Below are positions 7,193 through 13,946 of a stretch of DNA of 64,000 nucleotides, piece by piece (within the stretch, counting starts at the first letter, position 1; every line of letters starts with the position of its first letter). Below the pieces are notes generated by a model that was given only the letters and a program-made list of their open reading frames with translations, did no database searches and had not been told where the DNA came from. The DNA lies in NCBI GenBank assembly GCA_021108415.1, contig JAIOQX010000003.1:124001-188000 (forward strand), in the 5' to 3' direction. This DNA is from Acholeplasmataceae bacterium (lineage in GTDB: Bacteria; Bacillota_I; Bacilli_A; Acholeplasmatales; Acholeplasmataceae). The position numbers were made by a program, and so were the translations under genes.

Positions 7193-7281
7193 TCCTTAAA
7201 AAATAGAAAATATGAACAATTCATGATACAATAAGTATAGAATTCATATTTTTTTATTTATATAAATAAAGGAGGACTTAC

Positions 7282-8658
7282 ATGGCACATTTGTTTGACA
7301 GGATGCATGACAATTTTTTTAGTGTGCTTTCGTCTCCAAATAAGAATACATACGTCGATTGTATTTTTGTAATCTATAATGCTATTGATACGATTGAAGA
7401 TGCTTTTCAGGGGGATAGAGAATATATCGTTTCTAAATTAGTTGATTATTTTGATGATCAACAAACAGATGATTTTGTCGATATGGAAGAAGATGAACAA
7501 TCCAATACATCTAGACAAAAAGCACTTCATGTGATCAACGTCTTAAAGAAAAACGGATGGTTAGGTGAAGAAGAATTAGGAAACTATAAAACATCACTTA
7601 ATCTATTTGACTATTCTATTCAAATCATCGATATATTAAGTCGAATTAAAAATAATCAACAAAACGAGTATACAGGAGAAATTTATACTGTGTATTCTCT
7701 TTTGTCTAGCTTTACAATTGAAGAAGGTATTGGCGTTTTAGAACAAGCTTACTTAAAAACTAATGATATCATTAGAAAACTTAAAGCACTTAAAGCTAAT
7801 ATTTATCGATATTATTATGACATTACAAAAAAGCATTCAAAAGAAGATCTACCACAACTCTTAGAGAAACTACTCGTTGAATATAAACAAAACTTCTTTG
7901 ATTCTGCATATTATAATTTAAAAACCACAGATAGCTTATCTCGATATAAAAGAGGTATCTTAGAATCTATTTCAAATATACAAAACGATGCAGACTTAAT
8001 GGATGAACTTGCAAAAGTTGTTATTAAGGTTAAACGGATTGATGATTATAACCAAGCATTTTTGTATGTTGAAGATAAAATGAGGTTTATTACAGATAGT
8101 TTTTCTGCATTAGAGTACTTAATTTTAGCAATTGATAGAAAGAATGAACAATACATATCAGCAGCAGCATCAAAGATATTATTTTTCACAAATCAATCAG
8201 ATGATATTGAAGGTATATTCAATAGGCTGTTTAGAATATTGTTAACAACTAAAGACCTAGATTACAATCAACTCTTTCATATTACACAAATAAGTAATTT
8301 AGATACAGATTCACTTTATAACCAAAGAAGACAAAGAGTTCAAACAGAACCAGAAGAAATTGATTTTGATGACAGTTTTATCTCAGATGAATATCGAAAA
8401 GAAAAAATCAAAGCATTGCTTAAAAATAATATTTATGGGAAAAAAGAAATTGATTTATATGTAAAATCAATACTTAACGAAAACAAAGAAATTCAAGCTA
8501 AAGATCTCTTGCTTGAAACACAAGAAGATTACGTAAAACTTATTTTAATTTTCTTGTATTCTAAATCAGTGGGTATGCATTATAATGTTGAACTTACAAA
8601 AGATAAATGTAAGAATAATTTCGTAACATTCCAAAACTTTATCATAAGGGGAAGATAA
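7282..8658 (+). CDS. jetA: Wadjet/MksF-type kleisin-like subunit JetA
   Basis: 458 residues, mostly helical and acidic in the middle. I recognise it as the JetA (DUF5716-type) component mainly from position and overall pattern: it is followed by a JetB-like gene 1 base later and a JetC SMC gene. The N-terminus begins AHLFDRMHDNFFSVLSSPNKN and the protein has a winged-helix-like C-terminal region (KEIDLYVKSIL). In Wadjet/MksBEF complexes this subunit bridges the SMC heads, as a kleisin does. A strong site (AAAGGAGGAC) precedes ATG 7282. The same operon continues into jetB and jetC. The family call is likely; the Wadjet subtype is uncertain. Confidence 0.75.
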   Translation: MAHLFDRMHDNFFSVLSSPNKNTYVDCIFVIYNAIDTIEDAFQGDREYIVSKLVDYFDDQQTDDFVDMEEDEQSNTSRQKALHVINVLKKNGWLGEEELGNYKTSLNLFDYSIQIIDILSRIKNNQQNEYTGEIYTVYSLLSSFTIEEGIGVLEQAYLKTNDIIRKLKALKANIYRYYYDITKKHSKEDLPQLLEKLLVEYKQNFFDSAYYNLKTTDSLSRYKRGILESISNIQNDADLMDELAKVVIKVKRIDDYNQAFLYVEDKMRFITDSFSALEYLILAIDRKNEQYISAAASKILFFTNQSDDIEGIFNRLFRILLTTKDLDYNQLFHITQISNLDTDSLYNQRRQRVQTEPEEIDFDDSFISDEYRKEKIKALLKNNIYGKKEIDLYVKSILNENKEIQAKDLLLETQEDYVKLILIFLYSKSVGMHYNVELTKDKCKNNFVTFQNFIIRGR

Positions 8659-8659
8659 G

Positions 8660-9298
8660 ATGAATAAAACATCCGCAATGAAACAATTAAATGACGCATA
8701 CTTCAATTTAAAAGAAGGCGAAAAGAATAATGTTTCTAGAATTGTAAATAAACTTCTTCAAGTTAATTTTTTAACAAAAAGAAAACCTGGAGATGCAAAT
8801 GATTATAGATTTATTCTTGCATATAAAGAAATCTTTGAAGCATATTTTGCTTTATCTGATTTTAATTTATCTATCCATCGTGATGATGAAGTTGTCTTTA
8901 TCGCAAATGAGCAATTATTTAATCATATGCGACTTAGAAAAACAGAAACGATAATGTTATTAATTTTGCGCATCTTGTTTCAAAGAAAAAAAGATTTTGT
9001 AACATTAGATGATGACGTTGAAATCTTTTTACACGAAATTCATAGTGAATTAACAAGAATTGGATATCTAGATCATAAACGTATTACAAAAGATCGTTTA
9101 AAACCTGCATTAACTTTTTTAAGAAGTTATAACATGATAGACTACATCGATCGTGGCCTTCATGATGATGCAAGAATCAAGATATATCCTACTATTCTTT
9201 ATGTAACAGATCTTGGCTCTATTAAAGATGTTGTCGATAAGTTTGAAGCATTCCAGGAAGGAGAGATGACTGATTATGAAGAAACTGACGAAGATTAA
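8660..9298 (+). CDS. jetB: Wadjet/MksE-type accessory subunit JetB (DUF4194-like)
   Basis: 212 residues. The middle matches the winged-helix KITE-like MksE/JetB pattern: NEQLFNHMRLRKTETIML followed by FVTLDDDVEIFLHE and a tail of about 50 residues. In Wadjet and MukBEF-like condensins this dimeric protein binds the kleisin. It starts 1 base after jetA stops and its last 23 bases overlap jetC, so the three are a single translational unit. It ends in an acidic tail (TDYEETDED) encoded by the overlap. Confidence rests on the gene order as much as on the protein itself. Confidence 0.75.
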   Translation: MNKTSAMKQLNDAYFNLKEGEKNNVSRIVNKLLQVNFLTKRKPGDANDYRFILAYKEIFEAYFALSDFNLSIHRDDEVVFIANEQLFNHMRLRKTETIMLLILRILFQRKKDFVTLDDDVEIFLHEIHSELTRIGYLDHKRITKDRLKPALTFLRSYNMIDYIDRGLHDDARIKIYPTILYVTDLGSIKDVVDKFEAFQEGEMTDYEETDED

Positions 9299-12200
9299 AC
9301 TGATTAATTGGCATTTGTTTTCAAATCAAACTATCGATATTAAAGACAATGCGCTCATCTCTGGTGAAAATGGTTCTGGTAAATCAACACTTCTAGATGC
9401 GATGCAATATTTATTAGTAGGTGGTAAAAGTGGTGCAAAATTTAATATTGCCGCAACCGATGATGCTAAACGTACACTTGAAGGCTATATTAAAGGCCGT
9501 ATTGGTGCAGAAAATAAAGAGTTCTTAAGAAATGGCGATGTCATTACACATCTAGCATTAGAGTATTTTGATGAGCAAAGTAAACAATATGCAACCATGG
9601 GAGTCATCTTAGAATTACCAAAAGGTGGTAATTTAAAAGAAAGATTTTATCTTCTAGATAACATATCAATACACGATAGTTTGTTTTTAGATAAAAAATA
9701 TCCAAGAGACTATAAGTCAATGAAAGCATATCTAAAAACATTAGATATGGATTTTTCACCTTTCGATTCACAAAGAAAATATAGAGAAGCACTTGCTAGA
9801 TTCTTTGGGATGGATGCGACTAAATATGCAAAAATTCTTCCAAAAGCTTTGGCTTTTAGATCTATAGATTTACAACAATTTGTTTTTGAGTTTTTATTAG
9901 ATGATGATCCAATTGATATTCAATCATTAAAAAATAATGTAGCTCAACTTAAAAAAATTGAGCAACAAATTAAAAATGACCGTGACAAATTAACTCAATT
10001 AACACAAATTAATGAGAAGGGCGAAGATATCGAACAAAATATTCGCCAAAAAGACATTAATAATTTAATTGATCAATTAAACTGGGTAGAAAAAAGAGAA
10101 GCATTCTTAAAAGATAATGAAAACAAATTAACATCAATTAACAAACAACTAGACTATCTAAGAGATGCAAAATCACAACTAGATGAACAAATGGATGAAA
10201 ATGATTCTTCAATTTTAAATCTAGAACGAGCTAAAAATGATAATGATATTTCAAGAACACTACAATCATATCAAGACGCACTCAATAAAAAAGCTATAGA
10301 ATACGAAAAACAAAAAGAAAATGTCATAGAAGTTAAAAAAGATCTTCAACGTGAATTTATCATTATGAAAGAGTTGACAAACTTAATGCCAAATCAAAGC
10401 ATTAAACAATTTGTTACATATTACCAACAATCACAAGATCAATTAGACACAGAAGAGTTAAACAATCATTTAGGTCACCTTGAACAAGATGTAAAATCAT
10501 TAGTTCAAGCTTATACATTAGAAAAAGATAAATTAGAAAAAAATAAACAAGACTTGTCTTCAGACATTAGTCAATCAAAATCAAAATTAAATCAATTAAA
10601 AAAACATGTAAAAACATATCCATATTATGTTCAAAAACTAATCACATCTTTAAATGATGAACTTTCTAATTATTATCAAAAGGAAATTAATGTTCAACCT
10701 TTATGTGAAATGATAGAAGTGAAAGATGAAAAATGGAGAAATGCTCTTGAAGGATATCTAGGAGGACAACGATTTGATATTATTGTCGATCCTAAATATT
10801 TTAATGATGCCTTAGAGATCTATGATCGCATTAAATTTGATCAAAAGATTTATGGTGTAGGTTTAGTCAATACACAAAAAATCGCACATTATGATCAAAT
10901 CAATGAAAATACACTAGCATCTATGGTCTCAAGCGATCATAAATACGCACGATATTACGTTAACATGATGTTAAACAACATTATGTGTGTTGATGATGTC
11001 AAAGAATTAAAAAACTACCAGAGAGCAATTACGCCGACTTGTATGACTTATTCAAACTATACAGCAAGACAAATCAATCCAAGAAACTATGAAGTTCCGT
11101 TTATTGGACAAAGTGCAACAAAAATTCAAACTGAGATGGAAGAAAAAGCATTAGCATCTTTAGAAGAACAAATGCAAGCACTTTATCAGTTAACAGATAA
11201 AAATGATCAAATCTTAAAACTGTTATTACAATCAAGACATACACAACTCTTACATCAAGGACAAATTAGATACCTTGATTTAATCAAACTAACTCGAAAA
11301 GAATATACAACCATTGAAGATCAAATCCAAGCACTAGGTAAGAGCAAGACACTACAAAATATAGAAGAGCAAATTGATAAAGCAAAACTTGCTAGAAAAG
11401 AATTAAGATTTGAATCTGATGAGCTTGTAGGCAAGATTGCCACTCAAAGAGAAGAGCGTCAAAGAGTTCTTGATCGTATTGATGATGTGCAAATTAAACT
11501 TGATGAATTTGTTCAAGAACAAAAATTGCTATCGCAAAAACATCCAGAAAAACTAAGCATTGCTCATACACAGTTTTATGCATTAAAACAAAAACATAAA
11601 CAAGATCATGAAGCAATCACTAATTATCTTGCGAATTCTTCAGTATCTCTAAACTCACAAATTATTAAGGATAAAACTGAATTAACAAACATCATGAAAA
11701 ACTATAATGAAACCTATCATTTTGGTGCGGGTTCAACTTTAGATGAACTAGTTTTTTATGAGCAAGAAGCCAATAAGATTAGAAATAATAATTTAATTAA
11801 GTATGAGTTAGAAGCTACAGAATTAAGAAAGAGCTCTGAAACAGGCTTTAAGGAAGAGTTTGTTGGTAAACTTAGAGCAAGTATTGAAAATGCGCAACAA
11901 CAAATTGCAGAGCTTAATTATGCGCTTCAAGATAAACGTTTTGGTAGTGACTCTTATCAGTTAACCTATAAAGCAAGTACGGATCCTGATTACAAGATGT
12001 ATTATGATATCATCATGAGTAATCAAGCAATCAGTAAACATACTTTATTTACCGAAGGTTTAACGAAAAAGAATGAATCCGCTTTAATGGAACTATTTGA
12101 AAAAATAGCTTCAAATGATCCTGAATATGATACACTTACGTATAAATTCTTAGATTATCGTAATTATATGAGCTATGACATTGAAGTTACAAACATTAAT

Positions 12201-12551
12201 GGTAATAAATCACTGTTTTCTAAAGTATCAAAAGAAAAGAGTGGTGGGGAAACACAAGTACCATTTTATATCGTAATTGCAGCATCATTCCAACAATTAC
12301 TTACCAAAAATAGAAGAGTTGATTCAGGATGTATCGTCTTATTTGATGAAGCATTTAATAACATGGATGAATCAAGAATTGATGCGATGATGAAATTCTA
12401 TAATTCTTTAAGTATTCAATTATTTATCGCAGTACCACCACAAAGAGTATCAAACATTATTAATTATGTAAATACAAGCTTAGTTATCGTTAAAGATAAT
12501 GATTATGCTATTGTTGAAACATTTAATGATGAACGAGAAATACGTATGTAA
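9276..12551 (+). CDS. jetC: Wadjet/MksB-type SMC ATPase JetC
   Basis: 1091 residues. The Walker A motif GENGSGKST is at 30-38 in the typical start INWHLFSNQTIDI...NALISGENGSGKST. Long coiled coils follow (about 230-450 and 640-800) around a central hinge-like region, then the ABC signature region KEKSGGETQVPFY and Walker B IVLFDEAFNNMDESR near 985-1040. This is the MukB/SbcC-like architecture of JetC/MksB. The motor extrudes DNA loops; in complete Wadjet the partner nuclease JetD then cuts plasmids. No JetD/DUF2220 gene is present on either side. The start overlaps jetB, with AAGGAG 12 bases upstream. Confidence 0.88.
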   Translation: MKKLTKIKLINWHLFSNQTIDIKDNALISGENGSGKSTLLDAMQYLLVGGKSGAKFNIAATDDAKRTLEGYIKGRIGAENKEFLRNGDVITHLALEYFDEQSKQYATMGVILELPKGGNLKERFYLLDNISIHDSLFLDKKYPRDYKSMKAYLKTLDMDFSPFDSQRKYREALARFFGMDATKYAKILPKALAFRSIDLQQFVFEFLLDDDPIDIQSLKNNVAQLKKIEQQIKNDRDKLTQLTQINEKGEDIEQNIRQKDINNLIDQLNWVEKREAFLKDNENKLTSINKQLDYLRDAKSQLDEQMDENDSSILNLERAKNDNDISRTLQSYQDALNKKAIEYEKQKENVIEVKKDLQREFIIMKELTNLMPNQSIKQFVTYYQQSQDQLDTEELNNHLGHLEQDVKSLVQAYTLEKDKLEKNKQDLSSDISQSKSKLNQLKKHVKTYPYYVQKLITSLNDELSNYYQKEINVQPLCEMIEVKDEKWRNALEGYLGGQRFDIIVDPKYFNDALEIYDRIKFDQKIYGVGLVNTQKIAHYDQINENTLASMVSSDHKYARYYVNMMLNNIMCVDDVKELKNYQRAITPTCMTYSNYTARQINPRNYEVPFIGQSATKIQTEMEEKALASLEEQMQALYQLTDKNDQILKLLLQSRHTQLLHQGQIRYLDLIKLTRKEYTTIEDQIQALGKSKTLQNIEEQIDKAKLARKELRFESDELVGKIATQREERQRVLDRIDDVQIKLDEFVQEQKLLSQKHPEKLSIAHTQFYALKQKHKQDHEAITNYLANSSVSLNSQIIKDKTELTNIMKNYNETYHFGAGSTLDELVFYEQEANKIRNNNLIKYELEATELRKSSETGFKEEFVGKLRASIENAQQQIAELNYALQDKRFGSDSYQLTYKASTDPDYKMYYDIIMSNQAISKHTLFTEGLTKKNESALMELFEKIASNDPEYDTLTYKFLDYRNYMSYDIEVTNINGNKSLFSKVSKEKSGGETQVPFYIVIAASFQQLLTKNRRVDSGCIVLFDEAFNNMDESRIDAMMKFYNSLSIQLFIAVPPQRVSNIINYVNTSLVIVKDNDYAIVETFNDEREIRM

Positions 12552-12568: not shown

Positions 12569-13897
12569 ATGAAACCAGTAACAAGTAAAAACATTGAACA
12601 ATTTAACAGTAATTTTGATAAAAAACCAGTACAAAAAGCATTATCAAGAGTTTTAGTGAAAAGTAATTTAGCTGATATTTTTGATGTGCAAGAACAAAGC
12701 TTAGCAAATCAATTTAAATTTTCACATGAAATAAAAACACTACCAGTTTCAAATCAAAAACAAAGTGGTAGATGTTGGATTTTTGCAGGACTTAATGTCT
12801 TAAGAGAAATCGTTGCTAAAAAATATGATTTAAAGAAATTTGAACTATCACAAAACTATACAGCTTTTTGGGATAAGTTTGAAAAGATTAACTATTTTAT
12901 AGAAAGCATGGATGATTTTCTAACATGTCATTATGATGATAGAACCTTGCAACACATCTTAAAGATGGGTATCCAAGATGGTGGACAATGGGATATGTTT
13001 GTTTCTCTAGTTGAAAAATATGGTGTTGTTCCACAAGAAGCAATGGTAGAGACAACTTCATCAAGTGGCACTCGATTTATGAATCAATTAATTAATGTTA
13101 AATTACGTAAATATGCTGCAGATGCAAGAGCTTTAGTTCAAAATAATAAAGAATCTGATATCAAAGCTTTAAAAGAAAAAACTTTAGATGAACTATATAC
13201 CTTATTAGTTACAAACTTTGGAATGCCACCTAAAACATTTGATTTTGAGTATGTATCAAATGATAAATATGCATCTATAAAAGGCTTAACGCCACAAAGT
13301 TTTTATAAAGAACAAATGGGTGACAACTTAAAAGATTATGTATCGATCATCAATGCACCAACCATTGATAAACCATTTATGAAAACTTATACAGTGGGCT
13401 ATTTAGGAAATGTTATTGATGGTAGAGAAATCAAGTATATTAATCTAGAAATGAAAGATTTAAAAGCTTTAGTGGTAAAACAATTAAAAGATAATGAAGT
13501 TGTTTGGTTTGGATCAGATGTTGCACGATTTGGTGATAGAACTAAAGGTGTATGGGATGATCAACAATTTGATTATGAATCGATGTTAGGCATGTCATTT
13601 AATATGTCAAAAGAAGATCAATTATACTATGCACAAGGTGCGATGAATCATGCAATGCTTTTAACTGCTGTTCATCTTGAAGATGAAGTATCTAAAAGAT
13701 GGAAGATTGAAAACAGTTGGGGAGATAAATCTGGACAAAAAGGATATTATTTAGCATCTGATTCTTGGTTTGATCAATTTGTCTATCAAGCAGTTATTCA
13801 TAAGAAATATTTATCAAATGAACAACTTAAAGCTTGGGAACAAGAACCAATAGTTTTAAAACCTTGGGATCCTATGGGCGCATTAGCAAATAATTAA
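12569..13897 (+). CDS. pepC: C1 family aminopeptidase (PepC / bleomycin hydrolase)
   Basis: 442 residues, full family length. The catalytic Cys69 lies in KQSGRCWIFAGLN; the His is in MNHAMLLTAVHL and the Asn in WKIENSWGD, in the expected order. The C-terminus (WDPMGALANN) matches PepC-type self-compartmentalising peptidases, where the tail reaches the active site. It is a cytoplasmic cysteine aminopeptidase that releases N-terminal residues from peptides. It starts 17 bases after jetC with its own AAAAGGAG site, so it may be cotranscribed with the Jet genes. A strong terminator follows. Confidence 0.93.
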   Translation: MKPVTSKNIEQFNSNFDKKPVQKALSRVLVKSNLADIFDVQEQSLANQFKFSHEIKTLPVSNQKQSGRCWIFAGLNVLREIVAKKYDLKKFELSQNYTAFWDKFEKINYFIESMDDFLTCHYDDRTLQHILKMGIQDGGQWDMFVSLVEKYGVVPQEAMVETTSSSGTRFMNQLINVKLRKYAADARALVQNNKESDIKALKEKTLDELYTLLVTNFGMPPKTFDFEYVSNDKYASIKGLTPQSFYKEQMGDNLKDYVSIINAPTIDKPFMKTYTVGYLGNVIDGREIKYINLEMKDLKALVVKQLKDNEVVWFGSDVARFGDRTKGVWDDQQFDYESMLGMSFNMSKEDQLYYAQGAMNHAMLLTAVHLEDEVSKRWKIENSWGDKSGQKGYYLASDSWFDQFVYQAVIHKKYLSNEQLKAWEQEPIVLKPWDPMGALANN

Positions 13898-13906
13898 ATA
13901 ATGATT

Positions 13907-13946
13907 AGATACTTAAGTTAGATAATGGCTTAAGTATCTTTTTTTA
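13907..13946 (+). terminator. Terminator after pepC
   Basis: An 11-bp perfect stem (AGATACTTAAG at 13907-13917 with CTTAAGTATCT at 13929-13939) and seven T residues. Confidence 0.88.

Follow-up and report, generated by a model that had tools for sequence, protein, structure and literature searches.

Nuclease-free JetABC, a type I Wadjet complex, as the likely chromosome condensin of the Acholeplasmataceae

The type I Wadjet proteins JetA, JetB and JetC, encoded here without the JetD nuclease, likely form the condensin that folds and segregates the chromosome in this lineage of the Acholeplasmataceae. This reading rests on the near-universal presence of JetABC in the family, the absence of Smc-ScpAB and strong purifying selection on the jet genes. 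Because no other condensin-class complex was detected, a chromosome-folding role is also the simplest explanation available. That JetABC extrudes loops, binds the chromosome or acts in segregation is inferred from computation alone.

Results

An intact JetABC operon followed by pepC

The window, the whole 64,000-nucleotide stretch of DNA analysed, carries jetA, jetB and jetC as one operon of intact type I Wadjet genes according to both Pfam and PADLOC. The features discussed below are the following, all on the forward strand.

7204..7232, + strand: promoter-like site (extended -10) 5' of jetA, a consensus match only
7282..8658, + strand: jetA, 458 residues, kleisin subunit (MukF/MksF-like)
8660..9298, + strand: jetB, 212 residues, KITE subunit (MukE/MksE-like)
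9276..12551, + strand: jetC, 1091 residues, SMC-like coiled-coil ATPase
9363..9389, + strand: JetC Walker A motif GENGSGKST (residue 30; K36)
10695..11006, + strand: JetC hinge region, residues 474-577, a weak PF06470 match (24 bits, cut-off 22.5)
12237..12254, + strand: JetC ABC signature KSGGET (residue 988; S989)
12330..12368, + strand: JetC Walker B and D-loop (CIVLFDEAFNNMD; FDEAF; D1024, E1025)
12569..13897, + strand: pepC, a housekeeping C1-type aminopeptidase (Peptidase_C1_2, 539 bits)
13907..13939, + strand: intrinsic-terminator-like hairpin 3' of pepC, a 14-pair stem with a T tail

As measured between open reading frames, jetA and jetB are separated by a 1-base gap, jetB and jetC overlap by 23 bases, and pepC begins after a 17-base gap. 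An AGGAGG ribosome-binding sequence lies directly 5' of the jetA ATG, and extended -10 promoter-like sites were no commoner than in shuffled sequence. The terminator-like hairpin 3' of pepC suggests that jetABC and pepC form a single transcription unit, and co-transcription is likely, as inferred from sequence alone. Even so, pepC is very probably a neighbour and not a component of the complex, since it is found after jetC in most family genera but not in Acholeplasma proper.

JetA matched Pfam PF18982 (JetA, 274 bits) and PADLOC JetA1 (328 bits). JetB matched Pfam DUF4194 (89 bits) and PADLOC JetB1 (208 bits), with a sub-threshold match to MksE and a weak profile match to JetB of PDB entry 8dk1 (E 0.004). 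JetC matched PADLOC JetC1 at 1073 bits, together with Pfam SbcC_Walker_B, AAA_29 and a weak SMC hinge, and its profile aligned over the full length with the Escherichia coli Wadjet JetC structures 8as8, 8bfn and 8q72 (E 1e-43). Against the NCBIfam models for SMC_prok_B and MukB the same protein reached only 37.6 bits (cut-off 567) and 33 bits (cut-off 699), respectively. The structural model of JetC predicts the order head, coiled coil, hinge, coiled coil, head, with the hinge region forming a confidently predicted globular part in mid-model. The Walker A, signature and Walker B motifs are all intact, and K36, S989, D1024 and E1025 are each invariant among 78 JetC proteins, a set that includes copies with and without JetD. 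Because JetA found no match among solved structures by sequence, an AlphaFold2 model (pLDDT 77) was used, which aligned with MukF (Z 14.4, 284-286 residues, rmsd 5-6) and with Wadjet-II JetA (Z 13.8). Gene identity, the ATPase motifs and the SMC-plus-kleisin architecture are in this way shown by computation. With the type I families, the architecture and the invariant catalytic residues all present, the complex is intact apart from JetD. JetA retains its N-terminal [IL]FD motif whether or not JetD is present, none of the JetD-contact residues in JetA stood out as lost, and no loss of a JetD-docking site was visible.

A first, sequence-only reading of this locus had described tightly coupled jetABC genes with a 1-base gap, a 23-base overlap and intact Walker A and B motifs, an aminopeptidase C gene 17 bases downstream, and membership of the Wadjet/Mks family. 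Each of these claims held, the first by open reading frames and motifs, the second by the Peptidase_C1_2 match of pepC, and the last with a more specific assignment to type I Wadjet by Pfam and PADLOC.

JetD is not detected in the genome and is sporadic among relatives

Neither the JetD_C (PF09983) nor the DUF3322 (PF11795) profile matched anything in the organism's own genome (1.78 Mb, 99.85% complete), which holds a single copy of JetC; the JetD profile search was positive in its control, Corynebacterium glutamicum. As both profiles were negative with a working control, a JetD encoded elsewhere in this genome was rejected. JetD_C was found in one of 88 family genomes (G023) and in eight of 160 genomes of the order, with E values from 1e-17 to 1e-27, and because JetD was recovered in those eight genomes the profile is considered sensitive enough. 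Genome G023, which we take from matching coordinates to be Tenericutes bacterium MO-XQ (CP017948.1), carries a complete second jetABCD operon ending in JetD, with a JetC copy of 37% identity, and its JetD-less core copy lies elsewhere in the genome.

Among ScpA-lacking genomes whose gene neighbourhoods were read, JetABC is without JetD in all families but f4, in which G151 has JetABC with JetD and G152 a truncated operon. The other JetD genes in those genomes belong to second copies (G023, G096, G111, G121 and G445). G109 has two JetA genes with JetD beside one of them, as judged from coordinates only, which is the second-copy pattern seen in G023, and in G133 JetD lies on a separate contig. 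Within the order, JetD-bearing copies are sporadic.

Smc-ScpAB is not detected in the family

Profile searches found ScpA in 0 of 88 family genomes and 0 of 160 order genomes, ScpB above its cut-off in 0 of 88 family genomes and, for the family genomes only, no SMC hinge matches outside JetC. The controls for the ScpA, ScpB and hinge searches, among them Bacillus subtilis and Lactococcus lactis, were positive. The absence of JetD and of Smc-ScpAB is shown as far as these profiles reach.

In a class-level sample of 395 genomes, ScpA was found in 181, JetA in 115 and both in 13, a largely exclusive distribution with an odds ratio of 0.085 (Fisher p 3e-20) that is not corrected for ancestry. Nine of the 13 genomes with both have JetD beside JetC. 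In about 112 of the 395 the profiles found neither ScpA nor JetA, and some of these genomes are complete and single-contig, for example G170 of family f16. Once shared ancestry was removed, the link between loss of JetD and loss of ScpA was not significant, with only five independent pairs available. Family f12 has JetD-less JetABC alongside ScpA. Two of its genomes, G216 (loci L145/L146) and G199 (L149/L150), carry ScpA, a full jetABCD and a separate JetD-less jetABC; they could represent intermediates in a handover between condensins.

The sequence-only reading had noted that the cassette lacks JetD, and this held and now extends to the whole genome (PF09983 and PF11795 negative). Of the three explanations it offered, the JetD-elsewhere option is ruled out for this genome within the reach of the profiles, another effector finds no support given that the gene after jetC varies by lineage, and service as a condensin is the best supported. 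It had also proposed a profile check for Smc-ScpAB, for which the counts above are the outcome, and a search for JetABC followed by pepC in relatives, which was met in most family genera and not in Acholeplasma proper.

JetABC is a conserved, vertically inherited part of the family

The family sample comprised 88 genomes in 15 genera, taken as Acholeplasmataceae through its named members, genome size and knowledge of the group; among the named members are Acholeplasma laidlawii, A. oculi, A. granularum and A. equifetale. JetC is present in 71 of the 88 genomes and 13 of the 15 genera, and JetA in 127 of 160 genomes of the order. The gene order cshA-jetABC-pepC is stable across most of the family; in Acholeplasma proper, ptsI takes the place of pepC after jetC. 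No plasmid-borne close relatives of JetC were found, those listed being at most 31% identical. Comparison of the window with relatives gave dN/dS values of 0.04-0.08 for JetA, about 0.08 for JetB and 0.05-0.10 for JetC, below those of the neighbouring CshA (0.12-0.17) and PepC (0.11-0.18). The jet genes are under strong purifying selection, tighter than that on cshA and pepC, and this, like the near-universal vertical retention of JetABC, is shown by computation.

In the reduced genus g11, labelled phytoplasma-like by inference from its family, its small genomes (0.5-0.8 Mb) and the literature, jetB-jetC lie at one place and jetA at another, with all three genes retained. Such split loci were read with intact genes at L172-L183 (G074, G073, G054, G057, G067 and G048), and in G073 fragments of JetC additionally occur downstream of jetC, at about 1.2-1.6 kb. 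JetA and JetC are both missing from 10 of 29 phytoplasma-like genomes, a group of ten that includes several single-contig assemblies of 91-99% completeness, and JetABC is missing from all five genomes of genus g14; no Smc was detectable in these genomes either. JetABC is accordingly dispensable in some members of the family.

Two further loci lie outside these patterns. In family f24, a JetABC lineage, the JetA match at G467:C34:37615-38910 contains five in-frame stops (three TGA, two TAA) and may be a pseudogene or reflect poor assembly. At L158 (G260, family f17), an ScpA-bearing genome has a very diverged JetABC without JetD, with a JetC branch length of 2.2, adjoining an apparent alcohol dehydrogenase gene.

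Genes downstream of jetC vary by lineage

The gene after jetC is pepC, ptsI, glgC, groES, rsmE, eno, lepB or sepF depending on lineage, with most names read from translations and only pepC and sepF assigned by profile. All of these are housekeeping genes, varying by family, with no replacement effector apparent. A conserved substitute effector beside JetABC was rejected on the same ground, namely that the downstream genes vary by family. In family f2 a small open reading frame of about 110 residues follows jetC (L118, with similar ones in L119-L127 and L130). At L118 (G091) this frame, at 8098-8442, is SepF (39 bits), a cell-division gene one base downstream of jetC. The adjacency of sepF and jetC in the f2 locus inspected is compatible with a possible cell-cycle role for JetABC.

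JetD-less JetC proteins do not form one group

In the JetC tree the family's core copies form one fully supported clade that includes the phytoplasma-like ones, while across the wider tree JetD-less lineages are interleaved with JetD-bearing ones. A single group of all JetD-less JetC was rejected (AU p 7e-47; 9e-6 without long branches). This interleaving suggests several losses of JetD, but the trees are quick, their root is unknown and they cannot separate gain of JetD from loss.

Discussion

A proposed mechanism and its rivals

Published work on Wadjet describes JetABC as a dimeric motor for DNA extrusion, with JetD cutting once a small circle has been fully extruded (PMC12647877, PMC10586767). 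By analogy, two JetC ATPases would join at the hinge, the JetA kleisin would close the ring and the JetB KITE subunits would be carried on it. The complex would load on chromosomal DNA and, like the JetABC part of Wadjet, use ATP to extrude loops. Without JetD the state reached on completing extrusion would have no lethal output, leaving loop extrusion alone, and JetABC would take the place of the absent Smc-ScpAB in this lineage.

Three other explanations were weighed. The system could still be a Wadjet that restricts small circular DNA through an unrecognisable or trans-acting replacement nuclease. The motor parts are all intact, the N-terminal motif of JetA is retained and neighbourhood analysis leaves room for a nuclease encoded in trans. 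Against this, the genome has no JetD_C or DUF3322 match, even though the first of these profiles picked out JetD in eight of the order's genomes; the genes beside JetABC are not conserved from family to family; and a near-universal, slowly evolving and vertically inherited complex is unlike a defence system. This alternative is considered unlikely. Less likely still, to the point of being hardly tenable, is that JetABC triggers PepC as a novel effector, comparable to the proteases of some other defence systems. Its position after jetC in most family genera, at a distance of 17 bases in the window, would fit such a role, as would the presence of a terminator-like hairpin only after pepC; but in Acholeplasma proper that position belongs to ptsI, and elsewhere to glgC, groES, rsmE, eno and others, a gene order that nearly refutes the idea, and PepC evolves faster than JetABC and is an ordinary Peptidase_C1_2 member.

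JetABC might instead be a DNA-repair or nucleoid-accessory SMC complex, with these small chromosomes segregating by other means. Several phytoplasma-like genomes and genus g14, which have neither JetABC nor a detectable Smc, speak for this view. However, no other SMC complex of the condensin class was detected in the family, JetABC occurs in 13 of the 15 genera, and the constraint on it is stronger than on neighbouring genes, so an accessory role also appears improbable. The condensin reading remains preferred. Weighing against it are the family genomes without JetABC, the roughly 112 class genomes in which neither ScpA nor JetA was found, the co-occurrence of JetD-less JetABC with ScpA in f12, the lack of a significant link between JetD loss and ScpA loss after removal of shared ancestry, and the retained N-terminal motif of JetA.

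Relation to known SMC complexes

Profiles, gene order, fold and catalytic residues all place these proteins in the same families as type I Wadjet (JetABCD/MksBEFG/EptABCD). They differ from it in lacking, in the operon and elsewhere in the genome, the CAP-Toprim nuclease JetD, in coinciding with the absence of Smc-ScpAB, and in distribution: type I Wadjet is sporadic, mobile and defence-like, whereas JetABC here is core and vertical (71/88 genomes, one clade, a stable site). A functional parallel is MukBEF of enterobacteria, likewise a nuclease-free kleisin-KITE SMC trio standing in for Smc-ScpAB, from which it apparently took over (PMC10586767). The structural model of JetA aligns best to MukF. 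JetABC is nevertheless not MukBEF proper: MukB chains have 1482 residues against about 1090 for JetC, the lineage is different, and the sequence similarity of the window's proteins is far stronger to JetABC than to MukBEF. Several marks of a MukBEF/MksBEF-like condensin are present here, namely a nuclease-free set of SMC, kleisin and KITE subunits, core chromosomal status, purifying selection and missing Smc-ScpAB; organisation or segregation of the chromosome is inferred.

A condensin-like role has been reported for Mks proteins in Pseudomonas aeruginosa MksBEF (PMC7485682), and in Borrelia, MksB is reported to promote long-range contacts (PMC10406323). Smc is present in those species as well, and Borrelia lacks MksE and MksF; here, by contrast, the complete JetABC set was the sole complex of this kind detected. 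Smc-ScpAB shares the presumed job of folding and segregating the chromosome and needs ScpA, ScpB and a full-score Smc, none of which was detected here. In the open-access literature searched, no description of JetD-less JetABC as an acholeplasma or phytoplasma condensin was found.

The evidence is evenly poised on a bolder reading, in which a plasmid-defence machine became a housekeeping condensin several times within the Bacilli. This reading would place separate JetD losses in the Acholeplasmataceae, in f2/f3/f5/f23/f24, in f11/f21/f26/f27, in f7 and in f12, with Smc-ScpAB also gone in all of these lineages except f12. Reviews speculate that MukBEF and MksBEF derive from a defence system (PMC10586767), and no intermediate on a route from Wadjet to MukBEF/MksBEF was found in the open-access papers searched. 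If the bolder reading is true, repeated conversion would be a living example of that proposed route. JetD-less JetABC lineages, some with ScpA (f12) and some with both JetABCD and JetABC in one genome, would make the idea of a defence origin testable.

Tools that score JetABC as anti-plasmid defence will err for whole bacterial lineages if JetABC is a condensin. For phytoplasmas, a review has described the chromosome-partitioning repertoire as sparse and the smc annotations as unclear (PMC3322544), and JetABC acting as the condensin would offer an answer to that question.
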